39,030 nucleotides of DNA from a virus: IMG/VR virus record IMGVR_UViG_3300023220_000143, positions 1 through 39,030 of that record, one strand, 5' to 3'. The notes beneath the pieces are model-generated. The model worked only from the letters and a program-made list of their open reading frames with translations, did no database searches and was not told the DNA's origin. Shown here piece by piece: positions 3,820-9,979 of the stretch (its first letter is position 1; every line of letters begins with the position of its first letter). Made by a program: the position numbers and the translations under genes.

Positions 3820-5688
3820 ATGACGACGATCATAGATACACAAACAGGAAACAAACGCACAATTCAGGTTGCTACCGTTGCGGAGATGGTAGCGAGGCGA
3901 TCCCTAGTGGTTGGCGACATCGTAGAGACTGCGGAATACGCAGACGGAGCCGAAGGCGGCAATCGTTACGAGATCGTAACGGCGGCGACAGGTACGGCAG
4001 ACGGTGGCGTGTTCATCGATGTAACCGGTCCATCTACGAACGTTCAGGCACAAGCGCTCTGGTATAATGACGAGAGAAATATTCTCCAATTCGGAGCGGA
4101 TAATAGTGGTTCAGTAGATGCGGCAACCATCATCGGCCTAGCTGAAGCATCGCTTTCGGTTGGGGATCGGCTTGTTTTCCCCACGGGAACCTACAAGATC
4201 GACTCAGGAATAAACCTCAACACCGACCGGTCAATCTATCAATTCGACGGCTGCACCTTGAGCTTCGGAACCGCAACCGGAACCGCTCTCACATTCGGAC
4301 CATTGACAGGAACTCCGGCTTTGTTTGACGCATCGATGGAGGGAACGCTAAAAGTCACCCGTACCCATGACACGACTGGAACCATAGCAGCCGCAACAGC
4401 TCTAACCCAAACTGGCATCCTGTTTCGGAATGTAATAGATTTCTCCTCTATGGGAGTTTATGCCGTCGTTTTGGGATTCGGGAAAGGTTATCACTTCCTA
4501 GGCGATGCAACTGGGTGCTCGGTTCAGGAACATGGGAAGCTAGTTGGGCAAAATTGCTTGGTGGATTTCGAGTTCGAAGTCGCCGCGACTGCTGGTTCGT
4601 TTACTTCAGCTCTCACCTTCTACGGCGCCCGGAACATTTATAATCAGCTCAACTGGAGCGACAATATCGGATCTGTTGGGGTTAATCTGGGTACTTCCGC
4701 CTCTCCCCTTCGCTCAGTGGACAACATCAAGTTTTTCAATGGGAATATCGAAGCGAAGAAACTCCGCAAGGTTGTATTCGGAGACTGTGAGAGCTGCGAC
4801 TTTCATGAGACGTATTGGGACCCAGGTTCGCAAGGAGGCGCTGCGGGAACTCCCGTACAGGATGGAACCAATACAGGTGGAAGCAGCTTCTTAAAGGCTG
4901 CGATCACCGGGGCTAGCATCTCTGCAAGTAATGCTCTTATCACCAAGACCGCTCATGGAATAGCCTTTCAGGATGGTGATATGGTTTTGATTACTTCGGC
5001 TACCAATCCTCTGGATGAGCGATGGGTTAGAGTTGATGGTCCCAACTGTACCGTGAACATAATCGCAACCGATGAGATATTCATCTCTAACAGTACATCT
5101 GATGTTGAATTCACTTATTACGGCGTTCAATTCGAGTTTACCATTGATTGCGTTAAGTCGGGAATCTTCGCGGGGGCATCGGTGGACGAGAACACCGTAT
5201 CTGAATTGATCGGAGGGCATCGCAATTGGATATTCAGCCCGCTAGGAGGAATGAAATTCTCTCCTCTTACAACTGCCGGAGGAATTCCAGGGGCAAACCT
5301 AACCAAGGACGGCTTAGGCCAGTTGAGCGCTACGGGTGTCAATAATCTAGCGGTATATCAGTTTTTGCTGAATCTAGGAACCGGAGCGACTAGCGCGGTA
5401 GGGATTAGAGGTCAGGCGAACCAAGCCAATACCTACATCGTAGACGCTGGAGAAGTGCTCTTTGAGACCACATCGAAGACCAGTGGAGCAGCAAACGGAA
5501 CGGCTAGCTTAAAAGGGGCGAATGTGGCTGAAGGGATTGTCGATGGGATTAAGGTCGATGGATCTACAACAACCGGCGACACGAGATTGTTTATCTATGA
5601 TATCGACAATGCAACAATGGAGCGTGTCACCGTTGGGGCTGCTGATAGTGGCGGGTCAGGATTCAAGTTGTTGCGAATTGCCAATTAA
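3820..5688 (+). CDS. Tailspike, beta-helix (pectate-lyase-like) receptor-binding protein
   Basis: A 622-residue protein, close in length to P22 tailspike gp9 (667). An N-terminal ~100-residue region probably attaches it to the virion. It is followed by the usual start of a phage beta-helix (QFGADNSGSVDA, then GDRLVFPTGTYKID at about residues 87-130). The rest is rich in Gly, Thr, Asn and Val, as in stacked beta-rungs. P22-type tailspikes bind and often cleave surface polysaccharide. I cannot pick out catalytic acids. It starts 1 base after the ejection gene without a Shine-Dalgarno sequence, which suggests translational coupling. The C-terminal ~150 residues may be a separate trimerisation domain. 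Confidence 0.75.
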   Translation: MTTIIDTQTGNKRTIQVATVAEMVARRSLVVGDIVETAEYADGAEGGNRYEIVTAATGTADGGVFIDVTGPSTNVQAQALWYNDERNILQFGADNSGSVDAATIIGLAEASLSVGDRLVFPTGTYKIDSGINLNTDRSIYQFDGCTLSFGTATGTALTFGPLTGTPALFDASMEGTLKVTRTHDTTGTIAAATALTQTGILFRNVIDFSSMGVYAVVLGFGKGYHFLGDATGCSVQEHGKLVGQNCLVDFEFEVAATAGSFTSALTFYGARNIYNQLNWSDNIGSVGVNLGTSASPLRSVDNIKFFNGNIEAKKLRKVVFGDCESCDFHETYWDPGSQGGAAGTPVQDGTNTGGSSFLKAAITGASISASNALITKTAHGIAFQDGDMVLITSATNPLDERWVRVDGPNCTVNIIATDEIFISNSTSDVEFTYYGVQFEFTIDCVKSGIFAGASVDENTVSELIGGHRNWIFSPLGGMKFSPLTTAGGIPGANLTKDGLGQLSATGVNNLAVYQFLLNLGTGATSAVGIRGQANQANTYIVDAGEVLFETTSKTSGAANGTASLKGANVAEGIVDGIKVDGSTTTGDTRLFIYDIDNATMERVTVGAADSGGSGFKLLRIAN

Positions 5689-8311: not shown

Positions 8312-8638
8312 CTATCCTCTAAGCTCTCCAGTTTTGAGCCAGTGCTGCAACTCTTCGACTAGCTTTTCCACGTCCGAAACGCTCAAATGCATTCGGGTTG
8401 ATAGTAAAACGTCCTTTGGCAGTGGATAATCAACCCATCCTGTAGTTTTTTTGGTCTCTACGCCGTTCTCATCAGCCTTAGAGGCCATTATCATTGGCTC
8501 TGCATTATCTAGGCCCAACCATAGTGCGTTCTCGGTTGCTAGGCTGCTCTGCTGGATCGAGCATTTCTGATCGTATAGATCATTGAATTTCCCTAATGGG
8601 AATCCACGTTCTGTTTTGGTCATTTCTATCTGTGTCAT
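8312..8638 (-). CDS. Conserved phage protein of unknown function (108 residues)
   Basis: The sequence resembles a widespread small phage family with the pattern RGF..GKF.D.Y...CSIQ.SSLA....LWLG followed near the C-terminus by a TRMHL motif and a final WL.TGEL. Here these appear as RGFPLGKFNDLYDQKCSIQQ (residues 11-30), LWLG (40-43), TRMHLS and HWLKTGELRG. No function is established that I know of. It is the first protein gene after the structured RNA in the leftward operon. The start context is AATACGAATATG without a Shine-Dalgarno sequence. Confidence 0.65.
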   Translation of the reverse strand: MTQIEMTKTERGFPLGKFNDLYDQKCSIQQSSLATENALWLGLDNAEPMIMASKADENGVETKKTTGWVDYPLPKDVLLSTRMHLSVSDVEKLVEELQHWLKTGELRG

Positions 8639-8880
8639 ATTCGTATTCTGTTGGTTGAGTTATCCGATTGATTCATTCAACCAGGTTAAAGATTCTTGGA
8701 AACGGAGTTCGAACCCCCCTTACCCGTTACAGAGCAAGGAGAGAGATTCACATAACCAGTATTATGAGTTCCAGTTTTTACGTGTGTTTTGGTAAACTCA
8801 AGCTCTGTAGCCCCCAATGACTTTGCACTTTCAAGCGTCTACCGTCGATCCCCAGTGGTTACGATCCACTGCACAATCAG

Positions 8881-8910
8881 AGCCCCCAAAGCGGTTTAGA
8901 CTGGGGGGCT
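8881..8910 (-). repeat. Stem-loop AGCCCCC/GGGGGCT with a competing third copy
   Basis: AGCCCCC at 8881-8887 pairs with GGGGGCT at 8904-8910 across a 16-base loop. A second AGCCCCC at 8809-8815 can pair with the same strand. In the leftward RNA the two GGGGGCT copies would compete for one AGCCCCC partner. On the plus strand the hairpin is followed by a short TTT and could look like a weak terminator, but no plus-strand gene precedes it. Confidence 0.5.
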
Positions 8911-8931
8911 TTGAAAAGTTCGATTTAGCGG

Positions 8932-9024
8932 GCAATAGGCGGGATTCGAACCCACGACCTTAGGAATACTTTAGGGAGACTAATCCCAGTTTCTTCCAAC
9001 GCTCTACCACTGAGCTACTATCGA
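8932..9024 (-). tRNA. tRNA-like domain with an abnormal anticodon arm
   Basis: Read on the minus strand, this has a clear D arm (GCTC-AGTGGTA-GAGC, 9015-9001) and T arm (GTGGG-TTCGAAT-CCCGC, 8955-8939). An acceptor-like helix of six pairs joins 9023-9018 to 8938-8933. Between the arms lie 45 bases instead of about 23. They fold best as one long imperfect hairpin (TTGGAA / TTCC-TAA, ACT/AGT, GGGA/TCCC) with no normal 7-base anticodon loop. No CCA follows; the 3' side runs directly into the CCCGCTAA strand of an enclosing helix. It is more likely a tRNA mimic inside a larger RNA, or a decayed tRNA, than a decoding tRNA. Confidence 0.5.
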
Positions 9025-9076
9025 ATCAGTCAGTCTAAGTGACCCTCCGGACATAACCCGCTAAGGCGAACTTTCA

Positions 9077-9309
9077 GAATGCTCGTTGTAGGGTGCGAGT
9101 CGTTAACCTCACTACATGTCGGGAATCATCCAACGCCGTTCAATCCCATTAGTGCCTGCGCTTCATCGGTGATTAATCAATCTCAATCGTGGCTGCTTCC
9201 GGTTTCCCTCTTCGCCATAAATTGTAATTAGCAATTTATTGCTCTAAGTTCTGAATTGTACCTTCGAATTGCGTTTCTACTTTCAACGCCGACCCTACAA
9301 GGAGCATTC
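9077..9309. repeat. Long-range inverted repeat, 17 of 18 bp, in the structured RNA region
   Basis: GAATGCTC (9077-9084) and TTGTAGGGT (9086-9094) are complementary to GAGCATTC (9302-9309) and ACCCTACAA (9292-9300), with one G-G mismatch at 9085/9301. The repeat encloses 197 bases that contain further hairpins, including 9217-9239. This is the clearest long-distance helix of the region and argues for a folded RNA. Confidence 0.7.
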
Positions 9310-9374
9310 AAATTCAGTGCTATGACCTTCTTCAGGCTGTTGCACAGGGCCGTGTGATACTAGAGACGGCGATC

Positions 9375-9460
9375 AGAGTTCTTGACGGAACAGAAGTAGA
9401 CAAAGAGGAAGGCCATCCCCGCGTCAAGCAGAAATGGCCTTCAAAGTCGTCAAGAACTCT
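9375..9460. repeat. Extended stem-loop, 13 bp plus 9 bp
   Basis: AGAGTTCTTGACG (9375-9387) is the exact reverse complement of 9448-9460. Inside it GAAGGCCAT (9408-9416) pairs with ATGGCCTTC (9434-9442) around a 17-base loop. The two helices are separated by an unequal internal loop of 20 and 5 bases. No U-tract follows on either strand, so it is not a simple terminator. It is the 5' domain of the proposed leftward RNA. Confidence 0.75.
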
Positions 9461-9478
9461 CTTGCCCTGGATGAGATA

Positions 9479-9503
9479 CAAAAAGCGCTCACTGTCAATG
9501 CGC
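9479..9503 (-). terminator. Weak possible terminator after the DUF3307 gene
   Basis: On the minus strand GCGC (9503-9500) can pair with GCGC (9488-9485) around a 11-base loop that allows one or two more pairs, followed by five U residues. It lies about 10 bases after the leftward stop codon at 9513. The stem is short, so it may terminate only partly, or may mark the 5' edge of the structured RNA. Confidence 0.3.
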
Positions 9504-9512
9504 AAAAATTGA

Positions 9513-9884
9513 TTACAAATGCAGAGCCAGATAATTAATCGTCAAGTGAATCGTATTGTCCGTGATGATCATTAGCCAAACAGTCAGCCAAGCAGGATCG
9601 TCCTTATGGTATCCGGTCGCCGAACAGTCTGACCACTTGAGCGACTTGTCTGTGATGCGGTTTTTAGCGAACACGACGTACCTAGCTAACCGGTATCGAT
9701 CAATCAGGTAATGAGTGCCAAGTATCACAGCAAATCCCCATATAGAAGGACTGAGCAGCAGGAAGGGCAACGAATAGACAAGAGCATGAGTTCCGGCTGC
9801 AAGATTGCTCTTGGTTTTGTTTTTGGCCATCCAATCAGTTTGCGTGATGTAGTCGCCAATGAGGTGTAGTATTAGTTGTTCCAT
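9513..9884 (-). CDS. DUF3307 family membrane protein
   Basis: A 123-residue protein with the features of DUF3307. The N-terminus is LILHLIGDYITQTDWMAKNK with the GDYxxQTDW-type motif. Two or three hydrophobic segments follow (about residues 34-60 and 98-120), with a typical HYLIDRYRLARY stretch between them. Members are membrane proteins of unknown function found in many phages. The ATG at 9884 has the context AATTATGG; a TTG three codons upstream is in frame but less likely. It is the first protein gene of the leftward operon, just upstream of the proposed structured RNA. Confidence 0.75.
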   Translation of the reverse strand: MEQLILHLIGDYITQTDWMAKNKTKSNLAAGTHALVYSLPFLLLSPSIWGFAVILGTHYLIDRYRLARYVVFAKNRITDKSLKWSDCSATGYHKDDPAWLTVWLMIITDNTIHLTINYLALHL

Positions 9885-9979
9885 AATTATCAAATTCTGA
9901 TGTTCCCGAAACCTGCTTCGTGAACATGTCAGCGATCCTTTTATCGAGGGGGATTGACCGTAAGCTCATATTGAACAAA

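Follow-up and report, generated by a model that had tools for sequence, protein, structure and literature searches.

YrlA, a bacterial Y RNA, contains a tRNA-like module whose arrangement is permuted, so that its ends open at the anticodon side. tmRNA is a large RNA with a tRNA-like domain that lacks an anticodon arm. ROOL is an RNA of phages and prophages that is often found near tRNA genes. GOLLD is a large RNA carried by phages, sometimes with tRNAs in its linker (PMC12286853).

We analyzed a window consisting of the whole 39,030-base IMG/VR virus record IMGVR_UViG_3300023220_000143. Its portal, major head and head-closure proteins belong to PHROG families of the P22 kind, and its early region encodes RecT- and RecE-like proteins (PHROGs). 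Between two leftward genes lies a region, 8877–9309, which is best read as a non-coding, structured RNA in which a tRNA-like domain is embedded. From its sequence it is best filed as a real but orphan structured RNA candidate, probably on the minus strand, with a non-decoding tRNA mimic. A first-pass annotation had proposed a structured RNA of ∼870 bases here (8641–9511). The structured core stood up, but it is only about half as long, at ∼430 bases; no significant structure was found in 8641–8876.

Comparison with known RNA families

The first-pass annotation had suggested a new or divergent member of the GOLLD or ROOL families, or else a different class of large RNA; the searches did not bear out membership in either family. 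When all Rfam 15 models were scanned (cmscan), tRNA was the sole relevant match even at E values up to 5; neither the GOLLD model, covering the conserved 3′ region, nor any ROOL model matched. A separate search with ROOL model RF03087 gave no match at E up to 10, a result that counts for little by itself, as its control genomes were blank too. GOLLD has 800 or more bases, compared with ∼430 in the core described here, and the tRNA-like domain of the window, unlike the tRNAs of GOLLD, is predicted not to decode and is built into a helix. ARAGORN found no canonical tRNA anywhere in the 39-kb record, a difference from ROOL, and the element therefore does not have the GOLLD-type location in or beside a tRNA array.

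Like tmRNA, the element would be a large RNA whose tRNA-like domain lacks an anticodon arm; unlike tmRNA, its domain is internal, has complete D and T arms, and is not built from the two ends of the RNA. A comparison with tmRNA models had been proposed, and it was negative: neither RF00023 nor RF04321 matched, aragorn -m made no call, and no tag frame was recognised. With YrlA the element shares a tRNA mimic joined to a longer stem. Here, in contrast, it is the acceptor side that is open, running into helix B, and Rfam gave no match. No Ro-like protein was seen among the proteins covered by a partial scan, made with PHROGs only.

Architecture of the element

The order on the minus strand is helix A, its interior, A′, helix B, a linker, the tRNA-like domain, B′ and hairpin C (Table 1). 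Three helices are placed end to end, with gaps of 2 bases from A to B and 0 bases from B to C. Expression in the leftward direction is plausible, given that the minus strand carries the tRNA-like domain as well as the genes on either side.

Table 1. Features of the structured region and its surroundings (window coordinates)
Feature	Coordinates	Strand	Description
Upstream neighbour gene	9513..9893	-	phrog_6676; related proteins called DUF3307 or membrane protein by some annotators
Probable coding remnant	9306..9538	+	two frames, about 9306-9419 then 9434-9535 MAFKVVKNSLALDEIQKALTVNAQKLITNAEPDN; contains the 13+9 bp hairpin; outside the RNA
Helix A, 5′ strand (GAAUGCUCCUUGUAGGGU)	9292..9309	-	17/18 complementary to 9077-9094
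Helix A interior, 197 bases	9095..9291	-	no marked structure of its own
Helix A, 3′ strand	9077..9094	-	pairs with 9292-9309
Helix B, 5′ strand	9057..9074	-	2 bases after helix A; 16/18 complementary to 8915-8932
Linker segment UUAGACUG	9031..9038	-	lies within helix B; candidate strand of a pseudoknot; all 8 bases pair Watson-Crick with 8896-8903
tRNA-like domain	8931..9024	-	acceptor 6 bp, D and T arms intact, no encoded CCA; Rfam tRNA 43.7 bits
Helix B, 3′ strand	8915..8932	-	begins with nucleotide 72 of the tRNA-like domain
Hairpin C	8877..8914	-	arms 8904-8914 and 8877-8887, 10/11; abuts helix B directly
Loop segment CAGUCUAA of hairpin C	8896..8903	-	putative pseudoknot partner; exact complement of UUAGACUG
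Possible small hairpin, 6 bp	8853..8871	-	after C; could be chance; from sequence and fold model
Downstream neighbour gene	8312..8638	-	phrog_3849, unknown function

Helix A and helix B each go far beyond what chance would give. An 18-mer helix with two or fewer mismatches appeared neither in 60 dinucleotide shuffles made from the region nor in 400 made from the core, and the other 871-base windows of this phage contain none. Helix A had been described correctly as 17 of 18 pairs over a 197-base interval. The perfect 8-bp helix reported around the tRNA-like domain (8925–8932/9057–9064) is also there, as the inner half of the longer helix B. The stem-forming repeats listed originally are present; apart from A, B and the 13+9 bp hairpin, most of the seven, at 8–13 bases and far apart, are at chance level, and many of the shorter listed pairs are of the sort that chance provides. 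The 13/13 repeat was likewise rare, with an equal in 1 of 60 shuffles.

The tRNA-like domain was recognised by the Rfam tRNA model RF00005, well above its gathering score of 29, as a cloverleaf with acceptor, D and T arms. The D arm (GCUC-AGUGGUA-GAGC) and the T arm (GUGGG-UUCGAAU-CCCGC) are both perfect. The decoding end is different: a 29-base insert with an inner GGGA/UCCC hairpin replaces the 7-base anticodon loop, giving a long branched arm, and the combination of a 5-bp anticodon stem, a 7-base loop and U33 is absent. The anticodon stem has one mismatch and the first acceptor pair is U-C. At its default threshold ARAGORN did not call the domain, whether or not introns were allowed.

Contiguity of the enclosing helix with the acceptor strand, as originally reported, was confirmed. 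Helix B prolongs the acceptor stem, because the first base of its 3′ strand is nucleotide 72 of the domain; the two form one continuous strand on the 3′ side, and on the other side they are separated by a 32-base linker. As modelled, the domain would be unable to decode, and its 3′ end as drawn could be neither tailed nor charged.

A further T-arm-like stretch was noted 3′ of the element, at 8701–8722 (minus strand, GGGGGGUUCGAACUCC); neither ARAGORN nor Rfam called a tRNA there.

Loop-linker pairing and folding energy

The 16-base loop of hairpin C contains CAGUCUAA. Its perfect 8-base match with a linker inside helix B suggests that loop and linker may form a kissing pseudoknot closing the structure. 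The match had p = 0.004 for Watson-Crick pairs only, rising to 0.06 once G-U pairs were allowed; that rise, and the fact that the pairing was noticed after the fact, we count against the RNA reading.

Folding energy of the whole interval was low on both strands (z = −3.1 minus, −3.2 plus), so it selects no strand; only the tRNA-like domain does, and the element is probably on the minus strand. Other windows were equally low in a genome-wide sliding scan, and energy alone would thus not single out the region. The free minimum of −154.7 kcal/mol breaks part of the cloverleaf; enforcing the cloverleaf gave −150.0, which is 4.7 worse by a calculation that leaves out the pseudoknot and tRNA tertiary contacts. 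Also counted against the RNA reading is the interior of helix A, where a 240-base window from 9121 had folding z of +0.8 (plus) and −0.1 (minus).

A coding signal on the plus strand

The first-pass annotation had found no convincing gene in its ∼870 bases, and this claim failed at one end. Codon usage was scored with a model trained on 30 of the phage's own genes, and two consecutive plus-strand frames were gene-like. Scores were 0.19 bits per codon at ∼9300–9419 and 0.25 at 9434–9535, compared with a gene average of 0.21; open windows in a wrong frame score this high in about 0.5% of cases (p about 0.005 for each stretch). Codon statistics gave no coding signal in the core, 8877–9300. The product of 9306–9538 had no match in Pfam or among protein families or phage proteins, tblastn included. 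From its codon usage this is probably a small or broken plus-strand gene, perhaps truncated or frameshifted, that converges on the gene at 9513–9893. A Shine-Dalgarno-like AAGGAG at 9299–9304 falls within a helix A strand, and the nearest start in frame with it would be ATT.

The 13+9 bp hairpin (9375–9387/9448–9460, 13 of 13, with 9408–9416/9434–9442, 9 of 9, nested inside) is real, but we left it out of the RNA because it is contained in this probable coding stretch. One caveat is that on the minus strand the hairpin gains six further pairs, three of them G-U, as would suit an RNA.

Search for homologues

No homologue of the element, and hence no covariation, was found in IMG/VR or among GenBank phages; this too we count against the RNA reading. 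With blastn, GenBank phages gave short tRNA pieces only. Exact patterns built on the tRNA-like domain had 0 matches in IMG/VR and 0 in 84,980 species genomes. L003–L018 carry relatives of the upstream gene but lack the element, and in one scan against genomes the upstream protein had a fragmentary match in a Legionella MAG. Relatives of the downstream gene, the capsid protein and the head-closure proteins were not found in IMG/VR, where the terminase had five weak partial relatives. A search of the literature outside subscription papers and preprints found nothing on point about phage tRNA-like RNAs with altered anticodon arms.

Viral tRNA-like genes without a normal anticodon arm

We searched IMG/VR for a D arm and a T arm 38–66 bases apart, a pattern that made no demand on the acceptor stem (acceptor and T stem were unasked or only partly asked). 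At least 120 stretches were found, with 122 matches listed. Among the matches listed, 102 of the 122 keep 6 or 7 of the 7 acceptor pairs together with 4 or 5 of the 5 T-stem pairs, and just 2 have a canonical anticodon arm. As the pattern did not ask for the acceptor that is nonetheless kept, these are tRNA-derived genes that have retained the acceptor side and lost the decoding end. Judged by sequence, such genes are common in viral contigs; among the matches listed, some are within tRNA arrays and some stand alone.

The enclosing helix is another matter. Among the matches listed there are 93 distinct genes, and of these the window has the most significant helix running from the acceptor 3′ end (p ≤ 0.001); only L032 and L034 are also below 0.01. 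So few passes in 93 tests are barely above chance, and an enclosing helix is therefore not general in viral tRNA-like genes. The L032 helix was rejected, since its 5′ strand is inside an open reading frame.

L034 (IMGVR_UViG_3300028797_000094, 4425–5262, plus strand) is a candidate large phage RNA by its sequence features. It is a ∼840-base ORF-free stretch in a 237-kb viral contig, with a TATAAT-like promoter sequence ahead of it, noted by eye. Its tRNA-like domain has no 7-base anticodon loop, and a 16-base helix extends the acceptor stem on both sides, features that it shares with the element of the window. It differs in being twice as long and in having no sequence in common outside the tRNA-like domain. 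Rfam found nothing in it apart from tRNA, and in folding energy it stands out less (z = −1.8).

An alanylation theme was considered and rejected: the alanine identity pair G3:U70 is present in the window's domain, but in only 10 of the 93 viral tRNA-like genes.

Possible roles of the element

The best explanation, to which we would give an even chance, is a structured RNA of ∼430 nt whose tRNA mimic binds a host protein that handles tRNA. This non-coding RNA would come from the minus strand of 8877–9309, probably as part of the leftward transcript or as a piece processed out of it. The tRNA elbow may be held rigidly at the RNA surface by helix B together with the kissing pairing, with helix A and its interior making up the rest of the RNA body. 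The acceptor end would be buried in helix B, and for that reason would accept neither CCA nor an amino acid. The partner of the mimic, which would take no part in translation, might be RNase P, a tRNA-modifying enzyme or a tRNA-targeting defence factor. It is the anatomy of the element on which this reading is founded. In its favour we count the unmatched quality of helices A and B, the Rfam tRNA score, the significance of the enclosing helix, the loop-linker match, the lack of coding signal in the core, the many viral tRNA-like genes without a decoding end, and the comparable embedding in L034.

Placement between two minus-strand genes, ∼240 bases ahead of the phrog_3849 start codon, would also fit a cis-acting element that belongs to the leftward operon and is situated in untranslated sequence ahead of that gene, as would the lack of any clearly recognised promoter or terminator at the element ends to mark a separate transcript, a lack that we also count against the mimic reading. 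The tRNA-like domain would then be a processing mark, with RNase P cutting at its 5′ side, or would control stability or expression downstream. We consider this somewhat unlikely: nothing ties the element to either gene, relatives of the upstream gene do without it, and the nearest likeness, L034, appears to have a promoter of its own. Decay is a less probable account again, in which a captured tRNA gene is degenerating in a spacer beside inverted repeats left by rearrangement, and has no function as RNA. Prokaryotic genomes are known to contain pieces of tRNA genes that have no function (PMC9897764), and the orphan sequence adjoins a probable broken plus-strand gene; the U-C acceptor pair and the anticodon-stem mismatch could be read as damage. 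Against decay, the damage does not reach beyond the anticodon arm, the D arm and the T arm both being perfect; the fit between the enclosing helix and the acceptor is exact to the base; and viral genes of like make-up are common and keep their acceptor stems.

Two further accounts are highly improbable. The insertion is at the right place for a tRNA gene with a small anticodon-arm intron that decodes once spliced, and ARAGORN, with a lowered threshold and introns allowed, gives a tRNA-Phe(AAA) with an 18-base intron. By hand, however, taking blocks out of the 29-base insert with the stem register UUGGA/UCCUA kept never restored a 7-base loop with U33. We rejected the intron on that ground; moreover no CCA is encoded, helix B locks up the acceptor end, and the default threshold gave no call. 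A divergent GOLLD or ROOL RNA has just as little chance and is largely refuted. GOLLD is phage-borne, is similar in size to the RNA first proposed and can have tRNAs in its linker (PMC12286853), but the Rfam scans matched no large RNA family even at E up to 5 (up to 10 for ROOL), and the core has ∼430 bases.

If the element is a tRNA mimic as favored above, a phage RNA would display a tRNA elbow yet be unable to decode or be charged, and phages would use tRNA mimicry outside translation. Tentatively, the element of the window and L034 could each be a lineage-specific example of one unrecognised kind of large phage RNA, with a non-decoding tRNA elbow built in by an extended acceptor helix. They would lie within a wider, largely unannotated set of viral RNAs of tRNA origin in which other structures have taken the place of the anticodon. 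If the element is real, the matches would offer an initial collection of viral tRNA-like genes that lack an anticodon loop but have their acceptor, D and T arms intact, genes that tRNA finders do not call, report as unknown, or assign an unlikely anticodon.

Other tRNA-like RNAs in viral contigs

One conserved tRNA-like RNA was represented by 15 distinct sequences (alignment A1), several of them inside phage tRNA arrays. Members include L068 2372–2473(−), L085 218–319(+), L107 11337–11439(+), L117 8642–8743(+), L119 3591–3693(−), L140 4654–4755(+), L088 414–516(−) and L093 11687–11788(−). The motif TCANGGY-NAAGG-RCC...NGC replaces the anticodon loop, and an invariant GGCCG/AGCCG precedes the T arm. 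The hairpin pair Y-R varies among T-A, C-G and T-G, and the adjoining stem of 4–5 bp varies among CCGCT/AGCGG, CCTCC/GGAGG, TCCC/GGGA and TCGCT/AGCGA. Rfam recognises only tRNA in this family. Possibly a second family of tRNA-like genes is formed by L053 10265–10358(+), L054 3847–3942(+) and L121, in which the anticodon arm reads GCGGA-AAANG-stem-CGAAA-stem-TACCTAA-TCCGC; between L053 and L054 the inner stem differs and the flanks are kept.

Acinetobacter phage SH-Ab 15599 has ∼1,150 unannotated bases with two tRNAs (83293–84445; L162 1266–2418). Long-range helices there pair 12/12 at 328 bases apart, 10/10 at 388, and ∼19/21 near the 3′ end. Rfam gave no large-RNA match to this stretch, and short similarities occur in other Acinetobacter phages. 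A tmRNA gene was seen in a 321-kb viral contig with many tRNAs (L066 4342–4704, plus strand). In Rhizobium phage RHph_TM30, near 134,900 (L161 2450–2545), we noted an unannotated, permuted tRNA-like element without an Rfam match, in the order T arm with acceptor 3′ strand, short loop, acceptor 5′ strand, D arm; it may be Y-RNA-like or a piece of a permuted tmRNA.
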